Below are positions 34,870-50,444 of a stretch of DNA of 64,000 bases, piece after piece. The first letter of the stretch is position 1, and each line of letters starts with the position of its first letter. Both the position numbers and the translations under genes were made by a program. The notes under the pieces were generated by a model, which worked only from the letters and a program-made list of their open reading frames with translations, was not told where the DNA came from and made no database searches. The DNA is from Oscillospiraceae bacterium (GTDB taxonomy: Bacteria; Bacillota; Clostridia; Oscillospirales; Ruminococcaceae), in NCBI GenBank assembly GCA_017545185.1, contig JAFWQJ010000003.1, positions 1 through 64,000 of the forward strand. Reading direction: 5' to 3'.

Positions 34870-34915
34870 GGCATGTGAAGGATGAAAACGATCATTGAAC
34901 AAAGGAGTGATTTTG

Positions 34916-36799
34916 ATGGAACACAGAAAAACAGTATCAGCGATCCTCTCAGCGGTGACGGCCTGCGCGGTGCTGCCGACGTTCCCGGCGGTTTATGCCG
35001 CTGAAACAGAAGTCCCCGACTGGGTGCCCGCCGATTTCAAGGATGCTTGCTCATTCGACAACACCTACGGCAGCACGCTCGTAAAGGACGACATCATCTG
35101 CATTGTCACGCGGCATACCGGAGAAGGAACCGTGAAGCGTTTACCCCTGCTCGGCAGCGGAAACTACAAAACACTGGCTGACGAATGGTATAAGGGCGAA
35201 TTTGAATTATACGGAGACCTTTATCCGTACTACCATGTCACGGTCTATCAGCCGGAGGAATCCAAAAGCATCGTTTTTTATAACTATGACACGGAAAGCG
35301 GCAAGGAAACGGCTAAAGAAGATCAGTATGTCTTCTCGGTTGATCCGGAGCTGCATGTCACGGAGACTGACTGGCGCGCCGTCGTGCCGGACTGCATCAC
35401 AGAATACAGGGATTTCATCGGGGAGACCGGCAACGAATACGGGCTCGGCACAGACGGGTTCACGACCTGCAACATCGGCGGCAGAGGCAGATTTGTGATC
35501 TTGGCGGCAGCAAGCAACGGCTTCGCAGGCAGCTACATGGACAGCAAAGTCACCGTCAACGGCGCAAAACGTGAGCTCAGACTGTCAAACTGCAATTTAA
35601 AATATGCAGGGCCGGAGCCGACCGATCAGGGCAGCACATTCGTGCGTTTCCTTGAAATCACTGAGCCGGCAGACATTGAGGCGACCCTTGAGCATCACAT
35701 GGAACACATCGAGCATGAACCGTTCAGCGTCACCAAAAAGCTGAAAGCTGAGAAAGACAGCAGCGGATTCATCAGCGTCTCTGCGGCGGATGAACCGGCC
35801 AACGAGGAAGAATGGCGCAAATATGTGCCGGATACCTCTGACGAGGCCTATACGTTCCTGCGCAGTGAGGGACTTGTCTCAAGCAGCGAATCGTTTAATG
35901 AATTCAACATTGACAACCGCGGCGATTATCTGATCGCGGCAGCGGCGACCTACGGCGGACTGTCGCCCGCAATGGCAATGATCGAGCTGAGAAAAGACGG
36001 AAAGCTGCTGAAAATGACATCTGTTGACTGCAAGCCCGCTGTATCCGCTGACTACGCGGTGGACGGTGAATGCCTGATCTCCTATGCTAAAATCACGGAG
36101 CCGTGCACGATCACGGCATCCATCCGGAACGGTGAAAAGAATTTCCGGAAGGAAACAACCATCACCGTGACAGAGGATGCCGACGGCAAGCTCTGCTTTG
36201 CGGCTGAGGATGAATTCGCATTCCTGCCCAAGAGCTTTGAGGAGGCAGATGCATTTTTCAGCGAGAACGGGGCTGTCTCTGAGCAAAAGGGATATATCGT
36301 CTGCTGCGGTGAAACGAACCGCACGACCGGCTACAGCATTCTGACCGATACGGCAGGCTCTGCGGGCGCAGAGGTCGTGAAAAAGGTACAGTTCAGCCGG
36401 GAACAGGATACATTGGAGGACGGTGCAGACCGGACATATCAGTTCACTGTGCTCAAGCCGCTTGAGAAAGGAAAGCTGAAGGTCACGGTGCGTCAGGCGC
36501 GTGAATGGAACCCCGATGACGGCAGGATTCTGCAGACGAAGTTCTATTACGTCAGGGATTATCTGTCCCTTGCAGAGCTGAAGATCACTATGGGCGATCT
36601 GGACGGCGACGGTCAGATAACAACCGCCGATCTCGTGCTGATGAGCAAGTACCTCGGCGGCACCCAGGATCTGGATGAAGTGCAGTTCTTTGCAGCTGAC
36701 CTCCGGAACGACAACCGCATCAATGCGGCGGATCTCTCGGTCATGAAGCGGCAGCTTGCCGAAATCCGGAATCCGTCGCCTTCGATCACAAATACATAA
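34916..36799 (+). CDS. Secreted dockerin protein with four novel ~120-residue repeats
   Basis: 627 residues, signal peptide (1-30), no known catalytic domain. Four units of ~110-140 residues can be aligned: each starts with a VP-PKS-type Pro followed by an aromatic/acidic helix (WVPADFKDACSF, VVPDCITEYRDF, YVPDTSDEAYTF, FLPKSFEEADAF), then a Gly turn and a beta strand, and ends F-x-tvl/it-x-P-x5-I (HVTVYQPEES, RFLEITEPADI, SYAKITEPCTI, QFTVLKPLEKG). The dockerin (GDLDGDGQITTADLVLM and ADLRNDNRINAADLSVMKRQL) belongs to a different class from the GH enzymes nearby. ATG 34916 has GGAG 8 bases upstream. The role is unknown; repeated binding modules are plausible. Confidence 0.7.
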   Translation: MEHRKTVSAILSAVTACAVLPTFPAVYAAETEVPDWVPADFKDACSFDNTYGSTLVKDDIICIVTRHTGEGTVKRLPLLGSGNYKTLADEWYKGEFELYGDLYPYYHVTVYQPEESKSIVFYNYDTESGKETAKEDQYVFSVDPELHVTETDWRAVVPDCITEYRDFIGETGNEYGLGTDGFTTCNIGGRGRFVILAAASNGFAGSYMDSKVTVNGAKRELRLSNCNLKYAGPEPTDQGSTFVRFLEITEPADIEATLEHHMEHIEHEPFSVTKKLKAEKDSSGFISVSAADEPANEEEWRKYVPDTSDEAYTFLRSEGLVSSSESFNEFNIDNRGDYLIAAAATYGGLSPAMAMIELRKDGKLLKMTSVDCKPAVSADYAVDGECLISYAKITEPCTITASIRNGEKNFRKETTITVTEDADGKLCFAAEDEFAFLPKSFEEADAFFSENGAVSEQKGYIVCCGETNRTTGYSILTDTAGSAGAEVVKKVQFSREQDTLEDGADRTYQFTVLKPLEKGKLKVTVRQAREWNPDDGRILQTKFYYVRDYLSLAELKITMGDLDGDGQITTADLVLMSKYLGGTQDLDEVQFFAADLRNDNRINAADLSVMKRQLAEIRNPSPSITNT

Positions 36800-37050: not shown

Positions 37051-39282
37051 ATGAAAAGCAAATTGGTCAGGCAGGCGGCGGCAGCAGCGCTGGCGCTTGC
37101 AATGGCAGCAGGTGCTCTGCCGGCATTTCCGGCGGCGGAAGGCTTCCTGTCCCCTGCCGCGGTCACAGCCAGCGCCGCAGACTTCAACCTTGCTGTTGAA
37201 GACGGCACGCTGACACTCGCGGGAGACATGAATGCAGATCCGCAGGAATTCCGCACGGCACTGAACGATCTGGACTGGTCAACGATCACTGCCTTGAAGG
37301 CCGCACCGAACGCGGTCTTTCCGGAGGACTGCTCCGGACTGTTCGCGGGCAGAAACACGCTGGAAACAGTTGATTTTTCCGGCGCGGATTTCTCTCATGT
37401 TCAGAAAACGGACGCCATGCTGAGCGGCTGTGTGAAGCTGCAGAGCGTCAAAATGACCGGCCTTGATCTCTCGGCACTGGAATCGTTCTACTATACGTTC
37501 GGCACCTGCAGAGCACTGAAATCGGTCGATCTGACCGGCTCCGTCATGACGAAGGTCAGCGACGCTTCTTCTCTGTTCGTCAACGACGAAGCGCTGGAGG
37601 AGGTCAAGGGACTTGCGATCAACAGCCCCAACCTGAAAAGAGTGTCCCAGATGTTCTACAACTGCCATGCGCTGAAAAGCATTGATCTCAGCCAGCTCCA
37701 TACTGACAGCGCGGAAAACTTCAATTCCATGTTCTTCGGATGCATTGCGCTGACAGAACTCGATCTCAGCGGATTCCGCACCGGCTGCGGCAAATACTTC
37801 GACAGTATGTTCAGCTACTGCACTTCGCTCCGCACGCTTGATCTGAGCAGCTTCGATACATCCAGTGCAGCGTCACTGTCCTATATGTTCAAGAACTGCA
37901 ATTCGCTCCTCGCGGTAGATGTCAGCAGCTTCGATACATCCAATGTGTATGATTTCGGCTCGATGTTTGCATACTGCCCCAGACTGAAAACCGCTGATCT
38001 CTCAAGCTTTTCTTTTGACGAAAATGTCGATGCAGCCTATCTGTTCAGCGAGTGCACCGATCTGACAGAAATTGATCTGAGCGGTTTTGACAGCAGCAAG
38101 ATGACAAGGACACGGGGGATGTTCGGCGGCTTAAAGCATCTGAAAAAGCTGACCCTCGGCGAGCATTTCACAGAGCTTACCGCAGAGATGAACCTGCCCG
38201 AGCCGCAGTTCGGCTGGGCGTATGAAAACGCGCCGGATACCGTCGTTTCCGTTCCCACTGACGACTACACCCCCTACACCACATTATCCAACAGCGGCAA
38301 AAACACATACATCAGCAGAGGCGGATACGGTGAGATCACCGATGTTCAGCTGATGCTCCTCAAGGACGGCAGCACCAACGTCCGCTTCTACGCTGAGCTT
38401 TCCGACCTCATGGATCCGCAGGCTGTCGAGGACGGAGAGGTCTGGTTCTTCATCTATAATGTTGCAGGCAGTGCTTCTGACCATTACGAAGCGCAGGTGG
38501 ATGAGAACGGCAGATATTACGTGACGGTCAATGTCCCTGCAAAGTGCATGGCATCCAAGATCGAAGCAGACCTTTTCTTCTACAGCCAGAAGATCCATCA
38601 TCTGCCGGAGGGCGCGGAGATGCCGCAGGATGTCTGGAGCAAGGAGTTTGACAGAGTGTACTACTCTATCCGCAACTATGCAGATACCCTGCTTGCAGAT
38701 CCTGTGACCTATGCAGCGGAGCAGGATCTCATCAAGGCGATGCTCTGCTACGGCGGTGCGGTACAGCGTCATTTCAATTATAATATTGATACGACAGCGC
38801 CGACCAACTACCCGGTCGCTGATCAGGGCATCGACTACAGCGGCAGAGAATTTACCGCAGCAAACAGCTTTGTCAAGCCGCAGCCGATCAACGGCCTGTC
38901 CTATGCAGGCAGCTCGGTCGTGCTCGGCGCAACAACAAAGCAGCGGCATTATTTCAAGCTTGAAAGCGGCAGCATTTCCGATTACAGCTTCACCGTGAAG
39001 AAGGGCGGAACAACAACGGCTGCGGAACCGGCGCTGTTCTCCGGTGATGACGGCGACCTCTACTTCATTGAGACCGCGGGCGCTTCCGCAATGGATCTTT
39101 ACAGTGCGCTGACGATCACCGCGGCAAGCAAGGCGGATGCATCTCATACAATGCAGTTCCGCTACAGTGCCATGGACTATGTCCGCCTCGGCCTGCAAAA
39201 CGGCAGACTGACCGGCACCGCCGCAAAGGTCGCGGAGACACTCGGCTGGTTTGCCGCAGAAGCGCAGAACTATCAGAACTGA
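37051..39282 (+). CDS. BspA-like leucine-rich repeat surface protein
   Basis: 743 residues. A signal peptide (~1-40) is followed by about ten DUF285/BspA repeats (~60-370) of the form L-LDLSSFDTSSAASLSYMFKNCNSL, recognised in secreted adhesins. The C-terminal ~340 residues are beta-rich, without dockerin or LPXTG motif; they include VWFFIYNV and a YGGAVQRHFNYN segment and are not recognised. It probably mediates adhesion or substrate contact. A GGCACAC/GTGTGCC hairpin lies in the leader (36991-37022) and AAGGAGG precedes the ATG. A tiny peptide gene follows 14 bases downstream. Confidence 0.8.
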   Translation: MKSKLVRQAAAAALALAMAAGALPAFPAAEGFLSPAAVTASAADFNLAVEDGTLTLAGDMNADPQEFRTALNDLDWSTITALKAAPNAVFPEDCSGLFAGRNTLETVDFSGADFSHVQKTDAMLSGCVKLQSVKMTGLDLSALESFYYTFGTCRALKSVDLTGSVMTKVSDASSLFVNDEALEEVKGLAINSPNLKRVSQMFYNCHALKSIDLSQLHTDSAENFNSMFFGCIALTELDLSGFRTGCGKYFDSMFSYCTSLRTLDLSSFDTSSAASLSYMFKNCNSLLAVDVSSFDTSNVYDFGSMFAYCPRLKTADLSSFSFDENVDAAYLFSECTDLTEIDLSGFDSSKMTRTRGMFGGLKHLKKLTLGEHFTELTAEMNLPEPQFGWAYENAPDTVVSVPTDDYTPYTTLSNSGKNTYISRGGYGEITDVQLMLLKDGSTNVRFYAELSDLMDPQAVEDGEVWFFIYNVAGSASDHYEAQVDENGRYYVTVNVPAKCMASKIEADLFFYSQKIHHLPEGAEMPQDVWSKEFDRVYYSIRNYADTLLADPVTYAAEQDLIKAMLCYGGAVQRHFNYNIDTTAPTNYPVADQGIDYSGREFTAANSFVKPQPINGLSYAGSSVVLGATTKQRHYFKLESGSISDYSFTVKKGGTTTAAEPALFSGDDGDLYFIETAGASAMDLYSALTITAASKADASHTMQFRYSAMDYVRLGLQNGRLTGTAAKVAETLGWFAAEAQNYQN

Positions 39283-39296
39283 AAGGAAGATTTACG

Positions 39297-39410
39297 ATGA
39301 AAGCTTATACATCTCCTGAACTTGAGATCACGGTGTTTGCATCCGAGGATGTCATCACAGCCAGCATCTTTGAAACGGGTGCCGAGGACGAAATGCCGGT
39401 CCTCATGTAA
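39297..39410 (+). CDS. 37-residue peptide with EDVITAS motif
   Basis: Starts ATG 39297, 14 bases after the BspA-like stop, with GAAAGGAAG upstream, and ends at TAA 39408 before a strong terminator. The sequence opens MKAYTSPELEITVFASEDVI and continues TASIFETGAEDEMPVLM. From memory, short proteins of the form K-Y-x-x-P-E-x-E-I-x-x-F-x-x-E-D-V-I/L-T are common in gut Clostridia; their function is not known to me. It is probably cotranscribed with the BspA-like gene. No signal peptide, membrane helix or Cys is present. Confidence 0.7.
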   Translation: MKAYTSPELEITVFASEDVITASIFETGAEDEMPVLM

Positions 39411-39421
39411 ACAGCAACAGA

Positions 39422-39452
39422 AAAGCACGCATCCTTCACGGGTGCGTGCTTT
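39422..39452. terminator. Convergent terminator between peptide gene and MFS gene
   Basis: AAAGCACGCA / TGCGTGCTTT perfect stem followed by T6 on the plus strand. The stop codon of the minus-strand MFS gene lies inside it. Confidence 0.9.
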
Positions 39453-40662
39453 TTTTATGTCTTTTCCCGGTATCGCTTCTCAGGAAGCGCGAGCAGGCAA
39501 GGAATCCCGCTGCTGCGAGCAGCAGAATGATCGCGAAAAGCTTGACAGGCTCCACTGCAATACCGCTCCGGATGCAAAGAAAGCTGAGGACGGCTGCCAT
39601 CATGTAGCCGGTCAGCGTGGCCTCCGTCATGGCCTTGTTGTAGCGGCCGACCAGTCCGCGGCCGGCTGCGGAAAAGTTGACGTAATACCGGCTGCCGGAG
39701 AGGAAAATGCCGTTGCCGATGCCGCTCAGTACCGCAGCGGCGGTCAGCAGCACCGGGGAACTGCTGTGAAAAACGATGATCATTCCGAGCGCCGCAGCCA
39801 TTGCAAGCGGCGCGGCCGTCCGGAGTTTCCAGAGCTTCATCGCCGGGAACAGCCCGATCACCACGGCGGAGACCAGAACCGTTCCCGCAAGGAACAGGCT
39901 GCTTTTCACCGCGTAATCCGCAACATGAAGGTGATCCTTCATGATATAGGCGACCGAAGGCATCAGCGTGTTCGTTGCGCAGTACATCAGAAAGGTATAG
40001 ATCATCGCAGTCCGGTCAGCCTTCTGCACGGATGCGGGTACTTCACCGGACGGTTCCGCATCCGCAGCGGATGCGTTCATTCTTCCGCTTCCGCCGCCGG
40101 AATAGGCTGTATACGCACGGATGACAGGCAGATAACCGACCAGCAGCAGGCTTACGGAAAGCAGAATACAAAGCCGCGGAGATCCCGCAAAGAATGAGAA
40201 AAACAGCGGGCCTGCAATATAACCGATCATCTGATAGGTCAGCAGGATGCGCACATTCTTTTCGCGGTCGGCATCCGAGACCGTACCGGAAATGAACACA
40301 TCAAAGACATTGTACAGGAAGTTCAGGCAGAAGCTGGAAATACCGAACAGCACCATATAGATCACCGAATGCTGCACCAGAAACATCGCGGCAAAGGTCA
40401 GGCAGAGCGCAAGTGCCATGCCGGCAGTCAGAAGGAACCTGCTCCGCCCGGTTCCCTGCATACTGCGCCGGATGATCCGCGACGACAGCATAATGCCGAA
40501 CATCGTGCAGAGTGCACTGATAAACAGTGCGGCAGAGACGAGCGTTTCCTTCTTCTCCGGATAATAGCTGTCATAAAACATCTGCACCGCAATGTTCCGG
40601 ATGCCCGCGGAAAACACGGATGTACAGAGATACACAAGATCGCGCAGGAGCTGCTTTCTCAC
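39436..40662 (-). CDS. MFS transporter, last gene of the putative lipid operon
   Basis: 408 residues with about twelve hydrophobic helices split by a cytoplasmic loop near the middle (SGGGSGRMNASAADAEPSGE). Short Arg-rich loops (SSRIIRRSMQGTGRSR) fit the major facilitator fold. Substrate not readable. It starts 2 bases after the CDP-alcohol phosphatidyltransferase stop. E. coli pairs the MFS lysophospholipid flippase LplT with the acyltransferase/acyl-ACP synthetase Aas; an analogous MFS plus acyl ligase-PlsC pairing occurs here, so lipid flipping is a reasonable inference, not shown by sequence. Confidence 0.85.
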   Translation of the reverse strand: MRKQLLRDLVYLCTSVFSAGIRNIAVQMFYDSYYPEKKETLVSAALFISALCTMFGIMLSSRIIRRSMQGTGRSRFLLTAGMALALCLTFAAMFLVQHSVIYMVLFGISSFCLNFLYNVFDVFISGTVSDADREKNVRILLTYQMIGYIAGPLFFSFFAGSPRLCILLSVSLLLVGYLPVIRAYTAYSGGGSGRMNASAADAEPSGEVPASVQKADRTAMIYTFLMYCATNTLMPSVAYIMKDHLHVADYAVKSSLFLAGTVLVSAVVIGLFPAMKLWKLRTAAPLAMAAALGMIIVFHSSSPVLLTAAAVLSGIGNGIFLSGSRYYVNFSAAGRGLVGRYNKAMTEATLTGYMMAAVLSFLCIRSGIAVEPVKLFAIILLLAAAGFLACSRFLRSDTGKRHKKSTHP

Positions 40663-40664
40663 GC

Positions 40665-41414
40665 TTATCTGCCCTCTTTCTTCAGACGGAAGAACAGGGT
40701 GAACGCCATTCTGCAGACCTCTGCCGCCGCGCCGACGATCATCGGGATCATGATGATATCAAGCAGCATCACGGGGAAAGTACCGATATGGAACACCGTG
40801 ATCGGTCCGAAAATGAAATTGATGATCGCAACGACGATATACGAGACATGGATCTCGAACGGGCCGAAGGGCGGGAACGGGAACTCGTTGTAGATCATGA
40901 TATAATGCATGGTGCAGAGCATGTGGATGCCGTACAGCGGTGCGCCGAACGCGGCAAATTCCAGATGTCCGAAGGGCGAAAGGCCGATAAACAGCAGCGT
41001 GAACGTGCAGACCAGCGTATCCGACATGATGTCGAAGAAGCCGCCGCGCAGGGATTTCTGATTGCGCGTTCTTGCCATGTAGCCGTCCAGATTGTCGCAG
41101 ACGATATGCGTCAGCAGACCGAGCACTGCGGCGAGGAAGAACCAGCGCGAGAACGTCCCGAGGAAGAAGCAGAGCGAGCCGGTCAGTCCCGCGATGATGC
41201 CGATTGTCGTCACGACGTTCGGATGAACGGTCTCCGGGATCAGATACGCGAATTTATACGTAAAATCCGCAAATTTCCGCTCCATAACACTCGGAACGGT
41301 CTTGAGCGGCGCGTCCTTTGCGCCGGACTGGTCAGGCCTTATGCTGGCGGCTGCCTTCTTCGCCGCCTTCATCTGCTTTTTGGTCAGCTTGTCATCCTGT
41401 TTCAGTTCACTCAT
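40665..41414 (-). CDS. CDP-alcohol phosphatidyltransferase family protein
   Basis: 249 residues. The family motif DGX2ARX8GX3DX3D is complete, running from DGYMAR to GGFFDIMSD. Six or so hydrophobic helices surround it. These enzymes join a CDP-activated moiety to an alcohol: either CDP-diacylglycerol plus headgroup, or CDP-headgroup plus diacylglycerol. As the same operon encodes a soluble cytidylyltransferase, the second is favoured. Its start overlaps the HAD gene's end by 8 bases. Confidence 0.92.
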   Translation of the reverse strand: MSELKQDDKLTKKQMKAAKKAAASIRPDQSGAKDAPLKTVPSVMERKFADFTYKFAYLIPETVHPNVVTTIGIIAGLTGSLCFFLGTFSRWFFLAAVLGLLTHIVCDNLDGYMARTRNQKSLRGGFFDIMSDTLVCTFTLLFIGLSPFGHLEFAAFGAPLYGIHMLCTMHYIMIYNEFPFPPFGPFEIHVSYIVVAIINFIFGPITVFHIGTFPVMLLDIIMIPMIVGAAAEVCRMAFTLFFRLKKEGR

Positions 41415-42027
41415 GATTCTTTTCTCCTTTTTTCATAAGATATGCGCGCAGGCTCTGCTCCGCCTCGCGCCAGTTCTTCACGCGGAGCAGATTCTCCGCG
41501 GAAATGCCTCTGTTATACGGCGCGTCAAACAGCAGCACGCAGATGCCGTGCTCTGCAAGCTTTTTCGCCGTGACCGGGTGGTCATCTATCATCACGCTGA
41601 CATGATATTTCTTGCAGAATCGATGCTTTTCATCCGCGGCATGTTTCTCATCGCAGAGCAGCAGCTTATCACAGCAAAAGCCGTTCCGATGCAGCCAGTT
41701 CGTCAGTGCGCGGCGGCTGTACCGCCCGAGCGGCGAATCCGACATGGCAAATTTGCGCGCGGTGATCTGATAAATGCTGTGCCCCCCGCGCTTCAGCCGC
41801 CGGTATACGCCTGCGGCATCCGGATAGGGCGGATAGCTCCGGCAGTAATACGGCAGGAACCAGCGCATCCCGAACAGCAGCACCGGCAGTCCGCTGACGC
41901 CGAACATTTCCTCGAGCGTATAGCCCGCAGGATCGGCCGGCTGCTTCCGGAAGAACCGGCTCCCGTATTTCAGCATGAAATGCCGGGTGTCCAGCAATAC
42001 GCCGTCAACGTCAATGCCGATCCTCAT
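41407..42027 (-). CDS. HAD-superfamily phosphatase (5'-nucleotidase-like)
   Basis: 206 residues. Motif I is IDVDGVLLD at the N-terminus (nucleophile and acid Asp), motif II a Thr in YQITARK, and motif IV is MIDDHP. The layout resembles NT5C-type deoxynucleotidases, which also act on other small phosphate esters. Within this operon it could trim a phosphorylated headgroup precursor or lysophosphatidate-like intermediate. It overlaps the acyl ligase gene by 4 bases (ATGA) and the transferase gene by 8, so coexpression is tight. Confidence 0.8.
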   Translation of the reverse strand: MRIGIDVDGVLLDTRHFMLKYGSRFFRKQPADPAGYTLEEMFGVSGLPVLLFGMRWFLPYYCRSYPPYPDAAGVYRRLKRGGHSIYQITARKFAMSDSPLGRYSRRALTNWLHRNGFCCDKLLLCDEKHAADEKHRFCKKYHVSVMIDDHPVTAKKLAEHGICVLLFDAPYNRGISAENLLRVKNWREAEQSLRAYLMKKGEKNHE

Positions 42028-44639
42028 AATGCCGCCTTTCTCATGTCCGTGACGGCGCGGTAGAGCTTTTCCGTCAGCGTATCCGCGGTATCGTCCGTTG
42101 CCGGCATGATCGGTGCGCCGAACGCGATCTGCAGCCGCGGCTTTCTGTGATTTTTGAAATCATAGAACTTCGGCAGCAGCGTTCCAGCCGGATAGATCTC
42201 ATAGGCACCCGTGATGCAGACCGGCACGATCGGGACGCCGGTATCCATAGAAAGGCTCGCGACGCCCTTTTTGAAGCTGCCCATTTCGCCGTTCCGCGTG
42301 CGGGTGCCCTCGGGGTGGATCAGAAACTGCGTATCGCCCCGGCGAATGACCTGCTCCGCACGCTCCATGGCAGGTGCCGGATTGCCGCTGCGGTCGGTCG
42401 GGATGCCGCCGAGCATCCGGAGCATCTGCCGCGTGACCGCAGTATCAAGATGCTCCTGCTTTGCAAGGCAGGCGACGCGGCTGCAGTCAATGCGTTCTTT
42501 CAGCGCCGTCCACACCCAGAGCCCGTCCAGATGACTTTCGTGATTCGGACAGAAGATATAATGCCTGTCCGGACGGAGCTGCTCCGTACCTGTGATCTCA
42601 AAATCATAGAGGCTGCCGAACATGCGCATCATGCCGTTCAGCAGCAGCATGTCCCTGCGGCGGCGTTCCAGCGGAAAATCCTTCACATCCGCGGTGCTGC
42701 TGCCGGAGCGCCTGATATGCTTCTTTTTCACGGTCACATCCGCAAGCTCTCTGACCGTCTCCACGCTGCCGATCAGCTCCATGAGGTCGGTATCGTAGAC
42801 AGTCTGCAGCTCCGTGCAGAGCTCGAACATCGTGATCGAGTCGATCGAGAGGTCTTCCGTCAGCCGGGAATCCGGCGTGACCTCCGTATCCTCCGGGACA
42901 AATCTCCGGACAATGTCGCAGAAGTCGGCAAGATATGCGGGAAGATCGGCCGCAGCCTTTGTGCTGTGCTTCACGGATTTCTCCTCCTGCACTTTTGCGG
43001 CCGCATCGAGCTCCTCGACGATCTGCCGCAGCTGATACCGCTTGATCTTGCCGAGTGTCGTCGCCGGAAGCTCCGGCACGGTCAGAATGTCCGCCAGCCG
43101 ATACAGCGTACCGTTCGATTCCGAGCGGCTTCTGAGCTTCTTTTTCAGTTGTTCGATCTCTTTGCTGCTGAGCCCTGCCGACTCGATAAACAGCACGAGA
43201 TGATCAGTATGCATATAGTCATCCGGGATGCCGCAGCACGCGACGCGCACATCGCCGCAGACCGCCTGATAGTAGCTGTCCACATCGGGCGCGGAGACCT
43301 TGTGTCCGTTGCTGAGCTGGATCGTCTCCTTGCGTCTGCCGGTGATGTAAAGATAGCCGTCGCGGTCAATATAGCCGAGATCGCCCGTTTTCAGATAGCC
43401 GTCCGGCGTAAAGGCTTTGCGGGTGCTCTCCGGGTCGCGGAAATAGCCGTTCATCATCAGCGCGGATTTCACGAGGATCTCCTCATTCTCAATGCGGATG
43501 TCGATAAACGGGAACTGTCTGACATTGCCGGCACCTCTGTCCGGATAGCCGTCCTGCACCGAGGACGCGGTGATCGGGAAGGACGCCTCCGTCGAGCCGT
43601 AGGCGTTCAGGAACTCAATGCCGAGATCAAGGAAGAACCGCACGGTCTCAAGCTCGCAGGGCTCTGCGCCGCAGCCGAGAATGATAATGCGCCTGCCGAG
43701 CGCGGGTGCATAGAACGGTCTGGTCAGCCAGCGCATCCGGATGCCGGTGCGCTTCCGGACATACGAGGTGATCCTGCAGCAGGCCGTAAACGCCGCCCGC
43801 ACCGGGAACGGCCGCTTTGCGATCTCCGCCTGCATTTTCTTCTGAATGGTCTCGTAGACCTTCGGGATCATGATCATATGCGTCGGCTGATACACCTTCA
43901 GACCGAGCGTCAGACCGGCTGCGGTCAGTTCGGGCACGAAGCCCATTTCCGCACCGAGGATCAGATTGATGTGCATCATCGCAAAGCCGGCCACATGAGA
44001 AAGCGGCAGCACCTGCAGAAAGCAGGGCGTATTGTCCGTATAATTGCCGTAGCGCTCCCCTGCCTTCTGGCCGTAGAAGATCGACTTATAGGTCACCTCC
44101 ACGCCCTTGACGCTGCCGGTCGTGCCGGAGGAAAAGAGGATCGCGATGATGTCCTGCTTGCCGGGGATCGCCGGGATTTTACGCTGCTTCAGTCCGGGAT
44201 TGAGCCGTTTCAGCGGCGTATTCCCCGAGAACAGCCGGTATACCGGCAGGGTGTTTTTCAGATCGGGGTCAAGCGTTTCATACAGCGCATCCGTCGTGAC
44301 GATCAGAGACGGCTCCGCAAATTTCAGCAGACGGTTCCGCTCCTCCGGGGGCAGCGCCACATCCGGCAGCACTGCGGGATAGCCGAGATACGCAAGCGCC
44401 AGCAGCATCGCCGCCATATCGCCGGAGGGCGGCGTCAGGACCGCGACGCGCGCATTCGGAGCAATGCCGTTTACTTCCAGAACGCGCTTCACATGCGCCG
44501 TCATGCGTTCGAGCTTACGATAGGTATAAATTCGTTTTTCGTGTTCGTTTATGAGGTTGACGATCGCAGCCTTACCGGGCGTTTTCCGGAATACACCGTC
44601 AAGCCGTTTCCGGTAATCCTGCTGTCCGTAGGTTTTCAT
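42024..44639 (-). CDS. Trifunctional acyl-AMP ligase - acyl carrier protein - PlsC acyltransferase
   Basis: 871 residues. The ANL adenylation domain (~1-535) has the P-loop ILFSSGTTGSVKG, YGSTEASFPIT and TGDLGYIDRDGYLYITGRRKE. An acyl carrier domain (~565-640) follows, with the phosphopantetheine Ser in DLSIDSITMFEL. A PlsC/LPLAT domain (~670-871) carries NHESHLD (HX4D) and HPEGTRTRNG. A fatty acid could be activated, loaded on the internal ACP and passed to a lysophospholipid or glycerol phosphate acceptor. E. coli Aas has the two enzymatic domains in the opposite order and no ACP. GGAGG lies 11 bases before ATG 44639. Confidence 0.93.
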   Translation of the reverse strand: MKTYGQQDYRKRLDGVFRKTPGKAAIVNLINEHEKRIYTYRKLERMTAHVKRVLEVNGIAPNARVAVLTPPSGDMAAMLLALAYLGYPAVLPDVALPPEERNRLLKFAEPSLIVTTDALYETLDPDLKNTLPVYRLFSGNTPLKRLNPGLKQRKIPAIPGKQDIIAILFSSGTTGSVKGVEVTYKSIFYGQKAGERYGNYTDNTPCFLQVLPLSHVAGFAMMHINLILGAEMGFVPELTAAGLTLGLKVYQPTHMIMIPKVYETIQKKMQAEIAKRPFPVRAAFTACCRITSYVRKRTGIRMRWLTRPFYAPALGRRIIILGCGAEPCELETVRFFLDLGIEFLNAYGSTEASFPITASSVQDGYPDRGAGNVRQFPFIDIRIENEEILVKSALMMNGYFRDPESTRKAFTPDGYLKTGDLGYIDRDGYLYITGRRKETIQLSNGHKVSAPDVDSYYQAVCGDVRVACCGIPDDYMHTDHLVLFIESAGLSSKEIEQLKKKLRSRSESNGTLYRLADILTVPELPATTLGKIKRYQLRQIVEELDAAAKVQEEKSVKHSTKAAADLPAYLADFCDIVRRFVPEDTEVTPDSRLTEDLSIDSITMFELCTELQTVYDTDLMELIGSVETVRELADVTVKKKHIRRSGSSTADVKDFPLERRRRDMLLLNGMMRMFGSLYDFEITGTEQLRPDRHYIFCPNHESHLDGLWVWTALKERIDCSRVACLAKQEHLDTAVTRQMLRMLGGIPTDRSGNPAPAMERAEQVIRRGDTQFLIHPEGTRTRNGEMGSFKKGVASLSMDTGVPIVPVCITGAYEIYPAGTLLPKFYDFKNHRKPRLQIAFGAPIMPATDDTADTLTEKLYRAVTDMRKAAL

Positions 44640-44726
44640 CAAAAAGAATGCCTCCTGAATTTGCAAAAGAATCAGCCGGCGTCCGCGGGAAAAATGCAGT
44701 CTGAGGCAGCGGGCGCGGCGATGCGC

Positions 44727-45806
44727 TTACAGCGAATAGAAGCGCAGGAAATCTTCGGGATCATGAATCCCGTGATCCGCATACCAGAATTCGGCTGTCT
44801 CAATGCGGATGCCGTTGTACCAGTCCAGCACGCGGTTCAGCTCCGGCACATCCGCACCGGCAAACTGCGCGATCTGCACGATGACCGCAAGCCCGAACGA
44901 AAAATCCGCCGTGAAATACCGCGAATGCAGGTCGGGCAGAAAGCCGCCCTCCGCAGGAACAGACGGCGTTTTCAGTCCTTTGAACGCATTGATGCTGCGG
45001 ATCTTTTCCGTCAGCTGATGCGGCGTTTCGCTCTCGTAATGCACCCGCAACGATTTCACATGCGAAAGGTCAAACATCGGCAGCGCACGGCAGATCTTCT
45101 GCACCTCATCGTCACAGCGGAACAGCAGCTCCGAGGTCTCGTCGTCCCATTCCTCATAAAACAGCGGCAGCGACGGATAGACCTTCCCCGGCTGATAATC
45201 GCCGAACAGCGTCATCAATCTTGTCGTATGCAGCACGGGATTCGAGGGCGTCAGCGTCAGGTTCAGCATATTCGGGATTGCCTTGCAGGGGATATCAAAA
45301 ATGCTGCTGACGAATGCGGCACATTGTTCCGCTGCGGATGCGGGCAGTGCCGCTGCGTGCAGCTCGGAACGGTATCCGACCGAGCGCACGGTACTCCCCT
45401 TTTTCACGAGCCGCGCCACAGCCGGTACCCGCTCGATACAGAAGAAGGTGTGCCCCTTTTCGATGCACCGCCGGAATGCGCATTCGCTGCCGCCGTTCCC
45501 CGGAACGACGCCGATCAGCGCGTCTTTTTTGCAGTATGCAAAGACATCGTCTGCGGCCTTCTGCATCAGTGCAGAGGGATATGTCACGAGCACGGCGTCC
45601 GCATCGGCAAGCGCGGTGACAGGGTCGTCCGTCGCACAGCGGATCTCGCCCTGATGCGTGAGATTGCCGTTCTCATCGACGATCGTCAGGCACTTTTCAA
45701 ACATCTCCGGCACAGAGGTATACACCGTGACCGCATGTCCTTTTTCCGCGCAGTGCACGGCGAACTGCGTCCCGATGTTGCCGCCGCCGATTACCGTAAT
45801 ATTCAT
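44727..45806 (-). CDS. Octopine/nopaline dehydrogenase family protein
   Basis: 359 residues. A Rossmann domain (ITVIGGGNIGTQFAVHCAEKGHAV) is followed by VPGNGGSE and the C-terminal opine-dehydrogenase domain with NLTLTPSNPVLHTTRL, containing the conserved Asn-Pro-His of the family, and TADFSFGLAVI. Opine dehydrogenases reductively condense an amino acid with a 2-oxo acid, or oxidise the product. It begins 1 base after the cytidylyltransferase fusion ends and is 87 bases ahead of the acyl ligase. A role in building or modifying an amino-acid headgroup is inferred. Confidence 0.85.
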   Translation of the reverse strand: MNITVIGGGNIGTQFAVHCAEKGHAVTVYTSVPEMFEKCLTIVDENGNLTHQGEIRCATDDPVTALADADAVLVTYPSALMQKAADDVFAYCKKDALIGVVPGNGGSECAFRRCIEKGHTFFCIERVPAVARLVKKGSTVRSVGYRSELHAAALPASAAEQCAAFVSSIFDIPCKAIPNMLNLTLTPSNPVLHTTRLMTLFGDYQPGKVYPSLPLFYEEWDDETSELLFRCDDEVQKICRALPMFDLSHVKSLRVHYESETPHQLTEKIRSINAFKGLKTPSVPAEGGFLPDLHSRYFTADFSFGLAVIVQIAQFAGADVPELNRVLDWYNGIRIETAEFWYADHGIHDPEDFLRFYSL

Positions 45807-45807
45807 A

Positions 45808-47622
45808 TCACTTCACCTGCATTTCCGTTTTCAGCGCAGCGGTCAGACGGTCGTTGTCCGCGCTGCCGCGGATCGCGATGCGGATGAACGCACCGCCGCC
45901 CAGCTTCTTTGAAAGGTCTTTGATCAGGATCGAATGCTTCACCAGCAGCAGCTTCGTCAGCTGTGAAGCGGCCATGCCGTTTGTGAGCTCCGCCGTGAAA
46001 TAATTTGCCTGTGACGGGATCACGCGCAGACCGTTGATTTCAGAGAGTGCTGCCGCAAACCGACTGCGCTCGGCACGGAAGCGGACAAGCGCAGTTTCGT
46101 AGTCCTTGTTGTATTTTTCTGCGATCTGCATATAGAATTCGCCGAAGGAATTGATGTTCCAGATCGCGACGTCCTTTTTCATCGCTGCGATCAGCTCCGT
46201 ATCGCCGGAAGCCAGCACGCCGAGGCGCAGGCCGGGAACGCCGTAGGATTTCGAGATGCTTTTCATCACATACAGCCGCGGGTATTTGTCAAGGATTTCC
46301 TGACGGATCAGCGTCGCATCCGGTTCGTCCGCAAAATCGACAAAGGATTCGTCGATCACAAGGCGGATGCCCTTTTCGGCAGCCCAGTCACAAAGACGCA
46401 GCAGGTCGGCCTTCGGGATATAGCTGCCGGAGGGATTGTCCGGATTCACCACGACCAGACTGCCGATCTCCTTATCTGCGAAAAATTGCATCAGGTCGTC
46501 CGCCGTATAGGAAAGGTCGGCATTGTGCGGATAAAACGAAACGGACTGTGCCGGGTCAAAGCGGTTCGGATATTCCTCAAAGGTCGGCCGGACAAAGCCG
46601 GTTCTGCCGCCCAGCTGCTCCATGAGGGATTTGATCAGCTCCGCCGCGCCGTTCCCGACGATGATGTTTTCCTGTTCTACGCCGAAGTTCTTGGCGGCCA
46701 GCAGCGCATTGACCTTCATGCCGGAGGGATACTGCGTCAGCAGCTTCTCAAAGCTCGCCTTGATCTCGTCGATCAGGCGCTGCGGCGGATAGAACGGATT
46801 GACCAGATAGCAGAAATCCAGCACCTGCGGATACCTCCAGTAGCCGCCGTACCGTGACTGGATCAGGCTGACCTTTTCATCGTCGTCCGGCGCGAACATG
46901 GACGCGGCAATGTCAAGATCCTGCAGATCGTCGATCTCGTACCAGAGCTGCCCGCTGAGCCGCTTTGCCTTGATAACCGGGATATCGAGCATTGTGATGA
47001 CCTTCAGCACCTGCTCGTAATACTCATTGTTGCCGAGTGCTTTGGAATAGGCGTCCAGAAACGGGATATAGTGCGTCTCCGAAAAGCGGCGGCTGAACTT
47101 GTAGATATTCACGGTCTTGTAATAGCTGCCGATCTCGTTGAAGCGGAATTTGTCCTTGCTGACGAACGCCTCAATATGGTCGTCGTCGTCGATCCGGACG
47201 CAGGTGCCGTCCATCCAGCTTTCGTATTTGTCCACGAGGGCAAGCGTATCACGCGGGTCGTCCAGCAGCAGGTCAATGACCGCATCCTCGAAGATTAGGT
47301 CGGACTCAAACAAGAGCGTATCGTCGCTGCAGAGATAATCCTTCGCAAGCGCGAGCGAATAGATATTGTTGGTCTTATAGTAGATCGGGTTTTCCACATA
47401 TTCGATCGGCGTGCGGATGCCGAGCGTATCAATGTACCGCTTCAGTTCCTCCGCCTTGTAGCCGACGACAATGACGATCCGCCTGAGCCCCTTTTTCTCG
47501 ATCTGCCGGAGCATCCTGTCGATCAGGGTCTCCCCGTTCACCTGCACCATGCATTTTGTATTGCTGCGCGTCAGGTTTTTCAGCCGTTTTCCCATGCCTG
47601 CCGCCAAAATTACAGCCTGCAT
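45808..47622 (-). CDS. Nucleotidyltransferase - PLP aminotransferase/decarboxylase fusion
   Basis: 604 residues. Residues 1-235 form a sugar-phosphate/choline-phosphate type nucleotidyltransferase (QAVILAAGMGKRLKNLTRSNTKCMVQVNG, FESDLIFED), closest in style to LicC-like cytidylyltransferases. Residues ~245-604 are a fold-type I PLP enzyme of the HisC/CobD kind, with NPDNPSGSYI, VIDESFVDF and the Schiff-base Lys in SISKSYGVPGLRLG. The pair suggests production of an amino-alcohol phosphate or amino acid and its activation as a CDP derivative. It is the first gene of the operon, under a consensus promoter. Confidence 0.9.
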   Translation of the reverse strand: MQAVILAAGMGKRLKNLTRSNTKCMVQVNGETLIDRMLRQIEKKGLRRIVIVVGYKAEELKRYIDTLGIRTPIEYVENPIYYKTNNIYSLALAKDYLCSDDTLLFESDLIFEDAVIDLLLDDPRDTLALVDKYESWMDGTCVRIDDDDHIEAFVSKDKFRFNEIGSYYKTVNIYKFSRRFSETHYIPFLDAYSKALGNNEYYEQVLKVITMLDIPVIKAKRLSGQLWYEIDDLQDLDIAASMFAPDDDEKVSLIQSRYGGYWRYPQVLDFCYLVNPFYPPQRLIDEIKASFEKLLTQYPSGMKVNALLAAKNFGVEQENIIVGNGAAELIKSLMEQLGGRTGFVRPTFEEYPNRFDPAQSVSFYPHNADLSYTADDLMQFFADKEIGSLVVVNPDNPSGSYIPKADLLRLCDWAAEKGIRLVIDESFVDFADEPDATLIRQEILDKYPRLYVMKSISKSYGVPGLRLGVLASGDTELIAAMKKDVAIWNINSFGEFYMQIAEKYNKDYETALVRFRAERSRFAAALSEINGLRVIPSQANYFTAELTNGMAASQLTKLLLVKHSILIKDLSKKLGGGAFIRIAIRGSADNDRLTAALKTEMQVK

Positions 47623-47691
47623 TTTTTCACATCCTTCCGTTTTTCCGTATTCTCATCGCAAGCAAATAAATACATATTATAACAACTTCAT

Positions 47692-47720
47692 ATTATAGCA
47701 AATTCCGTTTGCCGTGTCAA
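47692..47720 (-). promoter_or_regulatory. Promoter of the six-gene lipid operon
   Basis: Minus-strand TTGACA, 17 bases, TATAAT with TGC before the -10; the strongest consensus match in its region. Confidence 0.9.
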
Positions 47721-47850
47721 CTGACAAAACGCATTTTTCACAGCAAAAACATACATATCGCAAAATTGGTTGATATTTCACAAAAGATAAAAATTATGTT
47801 GATATACAGAATACAGCCCGTTTTTCTCCGGAAACATGCACAGGCAGAAA

Positions 47851-47876
47851 AACCGGAGCGCATTCACGCTCCGGTC
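47851..47876 (-). terminator. Terminator of the sigma/anti-sigma operon
   Basis: Minus-strand ACCGGAGCG / CGCTCCGGTT stem followed by TTTCTG, 11 bases past the anti-sigma stop. Confidence 0.85.
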
Positions 47877-47886
47877 AGGTTTGCGG

Positions 47887-48771
47887 TCATGATGTTTTTC
47901 GGTGCAGATCGCGCCACGCCAGATATTCCTCGGAAAGCCGCTCGTCCTCGGTGATCCCCTGCTGCACGCTCGTGCTGTTCAGCGGCTCCGCGCTTGTTTC
48001 GACCAGCGACTGATAGCTGCCGGACAACGTGCAGTACCGGAACTGCTGCCCCGTGATCTTCTCATCCGGGAAGGCGGCCTGCATTCTTTCCGTCAGCTCG
48101 ACCATGTTTTTGTATGCGTCACCCTTTGACATTTCCCGCGCATCCCACACATACCAGTAAATGCGGTGATACTGCGTTTTCAGGTCTCTGCCGCTGACGA
48201 CCGTATATAACCCGATCTGCTCCCCCGGTTCAAGCCCCTCGGCAGTCAGTTCGTCGCGGAACGCCGCATACTGTTCATTCAGCGCATTATGCTTCTGCTC
48301 GCCAAGCTTGCCGTCAATGATGAAATCATTGCGAAGCTGATAGGCTAGCCCGTATCCGTCGGAAACATACTGCCCGTTGTACCAGTCAAAATGACAGCGG
48401 ATCTTGCTGCCGGAATACGCCGAAAGCCGCGACTCCGCACGCAGCTTACCGATAAGCGGCACATAGCCGAGCCCGTAACAGATCACCCCGAATCCAAGCA
48501 GCAGCAAAGTCAGCAGCGTCAGACCGCAGCCTGCAAACACCTTCCGGACGCGCGATCTGCGCCGCACCTTTTTGAGTGCCGCCTTTGCCTCCGGCAGGTC
48601 GGCAGGCGGTTCCGCATCCGGCTGCTCCGGAAATGCCGCATAAAGCTTCCGGCATTCCTCACAGATTTTCAGATGCTCCTCGACCAGCTGCTTTGTTTCC
48701 TCGCTGCAGAGCCCGTCGTGATAGACCGGGAACAGGTCGCCGATCACCTGACAGCTTATCGTTTCATTCAT
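47887..48771 (-). CDS. Zinc-finger anti-sigma factor with one membrane helix
   Basis: 294 residues. The N-terminal zf-HC2 motif is CQVIGDLFPVYHDGLCSEETKQLVEEHLKICEEC (HX3CX2C), which binds the ECF sigma factor. A single membrane helix (~95-118, LTLLTLLLLGFGVICYGLGY) leads to an extracytoplasmic sensor of ~175 residues that I do not recognise. It overlaps the sigma gene by 8 bases; ATG 48771 (GGAGG 9 bases upstream) is preferred to ATG 48777, which is too near the ribosome site. Confidence 0.9.
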   Translation of the reverse strand: MNETISCQVIGDLFPVYHDGLCSEETKQLVEEHLKICEECRKLYAAFPEQPDAEPPADLPEAKAALKKVRRRSRVRKVFAGCGLTLLTLLLLGFGVICYGLGYVPLIGKLRAESRLSAYSGSKIRCHFDWYNGQYVSDGYGLAYQLRNDFIIDGKLGEQKHNALNEQYAAFRDELTAEGLEPGEQIGLYTVVSGRDLKTQYHRIYWYVWDAREMSKGDAYKNMVELTERMQAAFPDEKITGQQFRYCTLSGSYQSLVETSAEPLNSTSVQQGITEDERLSEEYLAWRDLHRKTS

Positions 48772-50393: not shown

Positions 50394-50444
50394 ATAATGT
50401 TGTATGATATATCCACTATCATCGCAGAGAAAGGAATAAAAAAT

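Follow-up and report, generated by a model that had tools for sequence, protein, structure and literature searches.

PntC-AEPT of Treponema denticola (Tde1415, structure 6pd1) combines a LicC-like cytidylyltransferase and a pyridoxal phosphate (PLP) enzyme for an aminoethyl unit in one polypeptide, and excerpts of the study describing it place LicD-like transferases in the phosphonyl tailoring clusters of PntC (PMC6697681). In the Kennedy pathway, a headgroup bound to cytidine diphosphate (CDP) is the substrate of a CDP-alcohol phosphotransferase. Traits of both systems come together in a six-gene operon on the minus strand of contig JAFWQJ010000003.1 of an Oscillospiraceae bacterium (assembly GCA_017545185.1), whose first 64,000 nucleotides are denoted here as the window. 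The operon (39436-47622; genes 1 to 6 in order of transcription) is proposed to build a glycerophospholipid with a pre-modified ethanolamine headgroup via a Kennedy-type (CDP-headgroup) route, a reading with a probability of about 40%. Confidence is greater in the pathway class, i.e. a CDP-activated, amine-tailored lipid, than in the precise headgroup; all substrates and the order of the steps are inferred.

Gene 1 differs from PntC-AEPT in its PLP domain, which is CobD-like (Aminotran_1_2), whereas that of PntC-AEPT is a class V 2-aminoethylphosphonate (AEP) transaminase. Furthermore, the operon lacks a phosphoenolpyruvate (PEP) mutase, and the predicted substrate of gene 1 is a phosphate ester, not a phosphonate. 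In contrast to the Kennedy pathway, the headgroup would originate from phosphoserine without an ethanolamine kinase and would be N-modified before transfer. PLP enzymes yielding an amino-alcohol phosphate are described for the capsule of Campylobacter jejuni: according to excerpts of the account, Cj1436 makes ethanolamine phosphate from phosphoserine, Cj1437 makes serinol phosphate (worded as a deamination of dihydroxyacetone), and Cj1435 later strips the phosphate (PMC12409886). In Campylobacter, unlike in the proposed pathway, the amine is amidated to glucuronic acid, and the excerpts describe no CDP activation (PMC12409886).

The predicted headgroup, N-[(R)-1-carboxyethyl]ethanolamine phosphate, occurs in the glossary and in a figure legend on the Klebsiella pneumoniae capsule and Proteus mirabilis O-polysaccharide among the excerpted sections of PMC9630907, on a glycan rather than on a lipid. 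Carboxyethyl-ethanolamine phosphate would be the expected output of a phosphoserine decarboxylase and an octopine-type dehydrogenase working with pyruvate; a literature search for the genes behind this headgroup found no gene assignment in the portions of text covered. The Proteus O-antigen is a carrier of this unit, and an R product fits the octopine-type dehydrogenase family. The predicted lipid, phosphatidyl-N-(2-hydroxyethyl)alanine, was reportedly found by Kemp and Dawson in 1969 in rumen ciliates, i.e. in protozoa, where it is said to derive from phosphatidylethanolamine (PE). A literature search for the ciliate lipid, whose name is unusable as a search term, found no paper on it. Another search combined opine dehydrogenase, cytidylyltransferase, LicD, CDP-alcohol transferase, and phosphoserine decarboxylase; among the matches listed, none describes such a system by title and abstract.

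All six open reading frames (ORFs) of the operon are confirmed in the ORF list, and the gaps between them, from gene 1 to gene 6, amount to 1, 87, -4, -8, and 2 bases. These values assume that gene 3 starts at the ATG at 44639, which is preceded by AGGAGG (the ORF list has a TTG start and 880 aa). Pfam assigns NTP_transf_3 and Aminotran_1_2 to gene 1, Octopine_DH to gene 2, AMP-binding and Acyltransferase to gene 3, an NT5C-type haloacid dehalogenase (HAD) family to gene 4, CDP-OH_P_transf to gene 5, and MFS_1 to gene 6. Both this family list and the tight spacing on one strand agree with the original prediction, which recognized a genuine operon and made a good guess at its class. Compared with the second carrier, genome G198, the ratio of nonsynonymous to synonymous substitution (Ka/Ks) is 0.08, 0.10, 0.13, 0.39, 0.13, and 0.18 for genes 1 to 6, at Ks values of 0.13-0.37; the six genes are genuine and under purifying selection.

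Gene 1 (45808-47622, minus strand, 604 aa) encodes a PntC/LicC-type cytidylyltransferase (residues ~1-245) fused to a CobD-like PLP domain (~260-600), the latter a proposed phosphoserine decarboxylase. All cytidylyltransferase signatures of the PntC/LicC type (LAAGxGxRL, ESD, W-Y-E-I-D) are present, with LAAGMGKRL at residue 6, ESD at 106, and YEID at 228. In the PDB, the N-terminal half (residues 1-245) matches PntC-AEPT (6pd1, 60 bits, residues 2-241) and LicC (1jyk, 56 bits) best, followed by 4jd0, named only nucleotidyl transferase (41 bits), and by heptose- or sugar-type enzymes (30-35 bits). A sugar-nucleotide role was rejected because PntC and LicC clearly outscore the sugar-type enzymes that bear such a name. 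With these two as nearest relatives, the headgroup reading of the original prediction is strengthened in one part, the activation of an amino-alcohol phosphate with cytidine triphosphate. According to excerpts of Rice et al. (2019; PMC6697681), Glu104 and Glu196 of Tde-PntC lie near the amine of AEP, where LicC has Asp. Glu104 aligns to Glu106 of gene 1, a position occupied by Glu in 84/84 rows of the alignment.

The C-terminal half (residues 268-600) is closest to 6oux (174 bits), ahead of 3ftb (110) and CobD (1lc5, 100). We take 6oux to be SMUL_1544, presumably a phosphoserine decarboxylase. SMUL_1544 is annotated in an excerpted source as a threonine phosphate decarboxylase-like enzyme, the same name as that of the 6oux molecule (PMC7755780). 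Among the NCBIfam models, CobD scores best with the PLP half (182 bits), followed by HisC (148), and many aminotransferase models match as well; since both cut-offs are missed, gene 1 was rejected as a plain CobD or HisC. The host genome has a separate CobD-like gene (286.7 bits vs. a cut-off of 290.55) and a HisC-like ORF on contig C73 (L015:5143-6198, labeled from reading neighboring translations). The PLP lysine, K458, is present in the window and in 82 of the 84 gene 1 rows. Judged by these matches, the PLP half resembles a phosphoserine/phosphothreonine decarboxylase.

A scan of species genomes with gene 1 yielded at least 592 candidate stretches, of which at least 520 encode a relative, not necessarily a fusion (tblastn, E up to 1e-3). 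The best 80 of these at least 520 relatives and three from a family search make up a set of 83 loci. All 80 align to the query from residue 1 through at least residue 592, and no fewer than 80 species genomes carry the full-length fusion; to judge by title, many of these are gut or rumen assemblies. Taxa in the titles include Lachnospiraceae, Ruminococcus, Clostridia, Spirochaetia, Bacteroidales, Actinomycetaceae, and Coriobacteriales. ORF calling was greedy, with length as the criterion, and neighbor families were named from one representative each. As less than 1 kb precedes gene 1 in three loci and follows it in seven, the neighbor counts are lower bounds. Within eight genes on either side of gene 1, LicD is found in 28 loci, opine dehydrogenase in 26, OCD/mu-crystallin in 14, and methyltransferase in 4; LicD or CDP-glycerol-glycerophosphotransferase-like (TagB/F-like) genes occur in 54. 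The immediate same-strand neighbor is an amine-tailoring gene for opine dehydrogenase (24 loci), OCD/mu-crystallin (12), or methyltransferase (4), or a transferase gene of the LicD (12) or glycerophosphotransferase-like type (12, plus 2 of a second cluster).

Opine and OCD genes occur together in one locus vs. 4.4 expected (probability 0.027), and a methyltransferase co-occurs with either in none (0.005 with methyltransferase added); both probabilities are only indicative, since the loci are not phylogenetically independent. Sorted by the amine-modifying enzyme within two genes of gene 1, 24 loci belong to opine dehydrogenase, 14 to OCD, 4 to methyltransferase, and 41 to none, i.e. about half lack a modifying neighbor, so that modification seems optional. 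The 84-row alignment of gene 1 has no column with a fixed difference that separates opine from OCD loci, and most substrate- and PLP-site positions compared carry the same residues in all neighbor groups. One CDP-amine, at best guess CDP-ethanolamine, is therefore probably made in all contexts and then tailored. The simplest reading is that this CDP-amine may receive one of three N-modifications and, in most cases, is passed on to a glycan.

Gene 2 (44727-45806, minus strand, 359 aa) belongs to the opine dehydrogenase family (Octopine_DH, 98.5 bits vs. a cut-off of 30) and its proposed role is N-(1-carboxyalkyl)ation of the amine on the ethanolamine unit. With an E limit of 1e-5, its PDB relatives are only octopine dehydrogenase (3c7a/3iqd) and N-(1-D-carboxylethyl)-L-norvaline dehydrogenase (1bg6). 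His193, Arg296, and Asp301 line up with residues conserved in 3c7a and 1bg6, presumably in the catalytic region of opine dehydrogenases. In an alignment of the window's protein with 27 homologues, H193 is found in 28/28 rows and D301 in 26/28; R126 is present in all 28 and in all 26 rows of a second alignment, from which two loci and one second copy were dropped and to which G198 was added. R126 may bind the phosphate or pyrophosphate of the substrate. Gene 2 looks like one of several amine-tailoring enzymes, also used in glycan loci. The earlier assignment, in which the PLP and opine-type enzymes together make an amino-alcohol or opine-like headgroup, is revised accordingly, with a decarboxylase-like PLP half and an opine enzyme that looks like a tailoring one.

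Gene 5 (40665-41414, minus strand, 249 aa) is a CDP-alcohol phosphatidyltransferase (CDP-OH_P_transf, 46 bits vs. a cut-off of 22) with a complete DxxDGxxAR(x8)GxxxDxxxD motif at residue 107, and a CDP-X:diacylglycerol transferase activity is proposed for it. Its top PDB match is choline/ethanolaminephosphotransferase 1, weak at 26 bits, with inositol enzymes also among the weak matches. Comparison with the NCBIfam equivalogs for PgsA, PssA, and PIP synthase gives eight hits, none reaching the cut-off. Gene 5 shares 41% identity with a host paralogue and 37% with relatives in two other genomes of the class. PlsC-like, acyl-adenylate (acyl-AMP)-ligase-like, and transferase genes stand together at the paralogue loci of the host (L138; the same in G198, L144), of G202 (L141), and of G797 (L140), along with a B12-radical S-adenosylmethionine (SAM) gene and a protein of ~220 aa without a family, each where tested. 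The PlsC and ligase families are Pfam-confirmed in L141 only and judged elsewhere by similarity to gene 3; in G743 (L139), just a short PlsC-like gene and no ligase was seen. The recurrence of this transferase type with genes for fatty-acid activation and PlsC-like genes supports a lipid acceptor. Together with the full motif, it lends support to the original proposal that the headgroup is joined to a lipid.

Next after the transferase, both L139 and L141 encode a cytidylyltransferase-PEP mutase fusion and an iron alcohol dehydrogenase, and a thiamine pyrophosphate (TPP) enzyme is also present in L139; by their gene families, both sets are phosphonate pathways. The host carries similar genes on two contigs. 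C73 (L015:7418-12049) encodes a cytidylyltransferase - CTP_transf_like - PEP mutase fusion, a phosphonopyruvate decarboxylase, and an iron alcohol dehydrogenase, and C43 (L138:7984-13326) encodes PlsC-like, acyl-AMP-ligase-like, B12-radical SAM, CDP-alcohol transferase, and 222-aa proteins. Together they resemble a split phosphonate-lipid system, of which L141 has the fusion, dehydrogenase, and lipid genes contiguously. By analogy with Fom3, the B12-radical SAM protein suggests C-methylation of a cytidine monophosphate (CMP)-hydroxyethylphosphonate ahead of lipid transfer.

Gene 3 (42024-44639, minus strand, 871 aa) joins an acyl-AMP ligase, an acyl carrier protein (ACP), and a PlsC acyltransferase (AMP-binding 156.4 bits, Acyltransferase 100.2 bits). 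The PP-binding score (18.8 bits) lies under the cut-off of 20.8, so that the ACP assignment draws additionally on the intact DSI at residue 600; SSGTTG at 170, HESHLD at 700, and EGTR at 777 are intact as well. Gene 4 (41407-42027, minus strand, 206 aa) encodes an NT5C-type HAD phosphatase (38.2 bits vs. a cut-off of 24.8; DVD at residues 6-8), a proposed phosphatidate (or nucleotide) phosphatase, and gene 6 (39436-40662, minus strand, 408 aa) a major facilitator superfamily (MFS) transporter (MFS_1, 38.8 bits vs. a cut-off of 33.4), a proposed lipid flippase. As in the Aas/LplT system, to which the operon had been likened, acyl-AMP ligase and PlsC share one protein with an MFS neighbor. In Aas, PlsC stands ahead of the ligase. 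The analogy proved loose: gene 3 includes an ACP, its ligase precedes PlsC, its scores with NF006386 (133.9 vs. 1221 bits) and NF005291 (97 vs. 1349 bits) are far under the cut-offs, and gene 6 matches no NCBIfam family at E 0.01, LplT model included.

The proposed pathway builds on the observed gene content, integrity of domains and motifs, selection, the separate recurrence of two gene pairs, and a gene 1 that stays the same in all neighbor contexts. The PLP half of gene 1 would decarboxylate O-phospho-L-serine to ethanolamine phosphate, which the nucleotidyltransferase half would convert to CDP-ethanolamine. Gene 2 would then link a 2-oxo acid, with pyruvate the likeliest, to the free amine by reductive coupling; the product would be CDP-N-(1-carboxyethyl)ethanolamine, in R configuration if the enzyme acts like octopine dehydrogenase. 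In the lipid branch, gene 3 would charge its own ACP domain with a fatty acid and acylate lysophosphatidate to phosphatidate, and gene 4 would dephosphorylate this to diacylglycerol. Gene 5 would unite both branches to phosphatidyl-N-(1-carboxyethyl)ethanolamine, which equals phosphatidyl-N-(2-hydroxyethyl)alanine, and gene 6 would carry the lipid across the membrane. In this arrangement, the CDP-alcohol phosphatidyltransferase, alongside genes 3 and 4, appears to replace the glycan transferase of other gene 1 loci. More tentatively still, the operon could be a blueprint for phosphatidyl-N-(2-hydroxyethyl)alanine-type lipids in bacteria, having arisen when a widespread phosphoserine-to-CDP-ethanolamine glycan-tailoring module became coupled to a lipid transferase, one CDP-amine core being served by interchangeable amine modifiers (opine dehydrogenase, OCD reductase, methyltransferase) and acceptors (glycan, diacylglycerol).

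If true, this would provide genes and a mass (PE +72.021) for a lipid class that is not known to us outside rumen ciliates and suggest a route to the carboxyethyl-ethanolamine phosphate of enterobacterial glycans. The job of the fusion enzyme would be that of a phosphoserine-based source of CDP-ethanolamine-type donors, and carriers would need no outside choline or ethanolamine for these decorations.

The full six-gene set with the same gene order is found in the window's genome and in G198 only, i.e. in 2 of 30 genomes of the genus. Of the 396 genomes of the family, 11 have a gene 3 homologue (E up to 1e-60), the host's own included, and the ten other neighborhoods fetched contain the complete set in G198 alone; the view that the six genes form a unit conserved throughout the family was thus rejected. 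That they belong to the invariable chromosome was likewise rejected, since G204 and G200 have the adjacent sigma-factor and zf-HC2 genes on contigs that lack the operon. The operon is accessory. A gene 4 homologue adjoins gene 3 in G228 and G005 (one genus) and in G103 (another), with no genes 1, 2, and 5 in the stretch; the gene 3 copy of G005 is broken by a TGA. G200, G042, G053, G256, G385, and G364 show neither the full set nor a gene 4 homologue beside gene 3. The search for a conserved neighborhood, suggested earlier as a check, came out half against the prediction, with the full set in one further genome only; the gene 1-gene 2 and gene 3-gene 4 pairs do recur separately elsewhere.

Two alternatives concern the headgroup. 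The PLP half might be an aminotransferase that forms serinol phosphate in the manner of Cj1437, which would give an N-carboxyalkyl serinol instead of an ethanolamine headgroup. Campylobacter uses one such enzyme for each product according to the excerpts cited above (PMC12409886), the fold alone does not discriminate between them, many aminotransferases are among the NCBIfam hits, and the tree does not place 6oux as sister to the window-type fusions. We consider this unlikely, as the decarboxylase CobD is the best NCBIfam model, ahead of HisC, and 6oux leads the PDB matches by 64 bits, in a comparison that did not include the Cj1437 sequence. The lipid might also be ordinary PE made via serine-based CDP-ethanolamine, with the opine enzyme acting elsewhere or making a free opine. 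Unmodified CDP-ethanolamine is indeed likely in the 41 loci without an amine modifier within two genes. Opposed to this are the 24 loci with opine dehydrogenase as the immediate same-strand neighbor, which include Lachnospiraceae, Coriobacteriales, and Bacteroidales by title, and the phosphatidylserine decarboxylase (Psd) of the host, which 29 of the 30 genus genomes also have. A CDP-alcohol transferase lies ~0.5 kb from the host Psd and is taken as PssA by position (another one, on contig C8, reaches 80 bits with the pssA model vs. a cut-off of 107), so that plain PE should need no second route. We rate the PE alternative somewhat below the one involving serinol.

The acceptor can be disputed as well. 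Gene 5 might hand the headgroup to a non-lipid or lipid-linked acceptor, e.g. a glycan precursor or a small alcohol, with gene 3 acylating the product. Some CDP-alcohol transferases take soluble acceptors, and the 83 fusion loci, of which 54 have glycan-type phosphotransferases, show no gene 5 relative. Still, the best PDB match of gene 5, weak as it is, and the PlsC-like and acyl-AMP-ligase-like genes around its paralogues speak for a lipid, and we rate this alternative about as improbable as the serinol headgroup. Least probable among the four appears an N- or O-acylation of the headgroup by gene 3 in place of lysophosphatidate, yielding a three-chain or opine-type acylated lipid. PlsC-type domains transfer acyl chains to various acceptors, and in the stretches fetched from three genomes belonging to two other genera, gene 3 occurs with gene 4 but without genes 1, 2, and 5, so that a link between its acceptor and this headgroup is not required. 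The joint travel of gene 4 and gene 3 would better fit the sequence from lysophosphatidate via phosphatidate to diacylglycerol.

Several observations weigh against a phospholipid with a pre-modified ethanolamine headgroup itself. The full set is confined to two related genomes, and relatives of gene 5 (E 1e-25, 391 genomes of the class) are found only in the host and two others, of which that of G743 (L139) belongs to a phosphonate-type operon and that of G797 (L140) lies beside ligase-like and PlsC-like genes with no recognised headgroup gene. The absence of an amine-modifying neighbor within two genes in 41 of the 83 gene 1 loci points in the same direction. In gene 1, the second amine-contact residue of PntC, Glu196, aligns to Tyr202, beside the invariant Glu203, and the PLP lysine is missing in 2 of the 84 rows. 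The CobD model TIGR01140 gives 182.4 bits vs. a cut-off of 290.55; gene 1 is therefore no CobD equivalog, and its substrate is not fixed by the model. In a 25-row tree of PLP domains, which contains several very long branches and whose bootstrap is not settled, CobD, 3ftb, and the host HisC-like and CobD-like proteins group at 98/97 without 6oux. The latter and two distant fusions (Priestia, Erwinia) join this group (83/99) apart from the window-type fusions, which renders 6oux intermediate and no proven sister of these fusions. R126 of gene 2 occupies the place of Thr143 of octopine dehydrogenase (3c7a), and to our knowledge the known opine dehydrogenases act on alpha-amino acids, not on ethanolamine units. 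Finally, a PDB search with gene 4 gives no meaningful match, and its family name points to nucleotides.

Within the genus, gene 1 is carried by 4 of the 30 genomes (the window's, G198, G218, and G214). In G214, the contig end truncates gene 1, whose 680-aa neighbor resembles the YidC-like fusion described below for G218; this genome, 77% complete, yielded no gene 3 homologue. In G218, the gene 1 homologue (L163:8024-10570, 849 aa) has a C-terminal SAM methyltransferase domain according to Pfam. This fusion possibly leads from phosphoserine to CDP-methylated-ethanolamine or CDP-choline within one protein, which hints at de novo phosphocholine-like groups. It adjoins a fusion of a YidC-like domain with a CDP-glycerol-glycerophosphotransferase-like domain (L163:5961-8006). 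The YidC/60KD_IMP-like membrane domain is seen in proteins of 682-896 aa, e.g. also L071:3507-6194, and the L071-type family occurs in 20 of the 83 fusion loci. A Fusobacterium vincentii locus (gene 1 identity 50%) has a LicD-like gene three genes off and no opine gene, and a gene 1-type locus on a Priestia plasmid shows no clear tailoring gene. On a plasmid of Erwinia rhapontici (L148:5980-9168), a distant gene 1 relative (32% identity) stands directly ahead of genes annotated as a CDP-alcohol phosphatidyltransferase and a HAD protein. This is another case in which the fusion is paired with a lipid-type transferase.

The single consensus promoter of the original prediction was confirmed (47692-47720, minus strand): TTGACA-17-TATAAT with a TG extension of the -10 element matches the consensus at 12/12 positions, is identical in G198, and is the sole promoter-like site on the minus strand within 39000-48000. 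A first-order Markov model predicts 0.007 exact consensus promoters per 64 kb vs. 6 counted in the window, so the organism commonly uses such promoters and the copy of the operon does not stand out. Between the window and G198, the 228-base stretch ahead of gene 1 (47623-47850) shows 6 substitutions and one gap, a near-identity despite the Ks values of the operon genes, and selection on this region may reach beyond the promoter. Riboswitch control was rejected, all three Rfam matches being far under the gathering score. At the other end, a hairpin (39419-39455) contains the final stop codon of the operon, that of gene 6. It passes terminator scoring for the plus strand only and is weak on the minus strand, where four T follow the stem. 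Secreted-looking proteins with dockerin-like C-terminal repeats, judged from the translations, flank the operon on both sides (34895-36799 and 50397-52571) and recall cellulosome-forming ruminococci.

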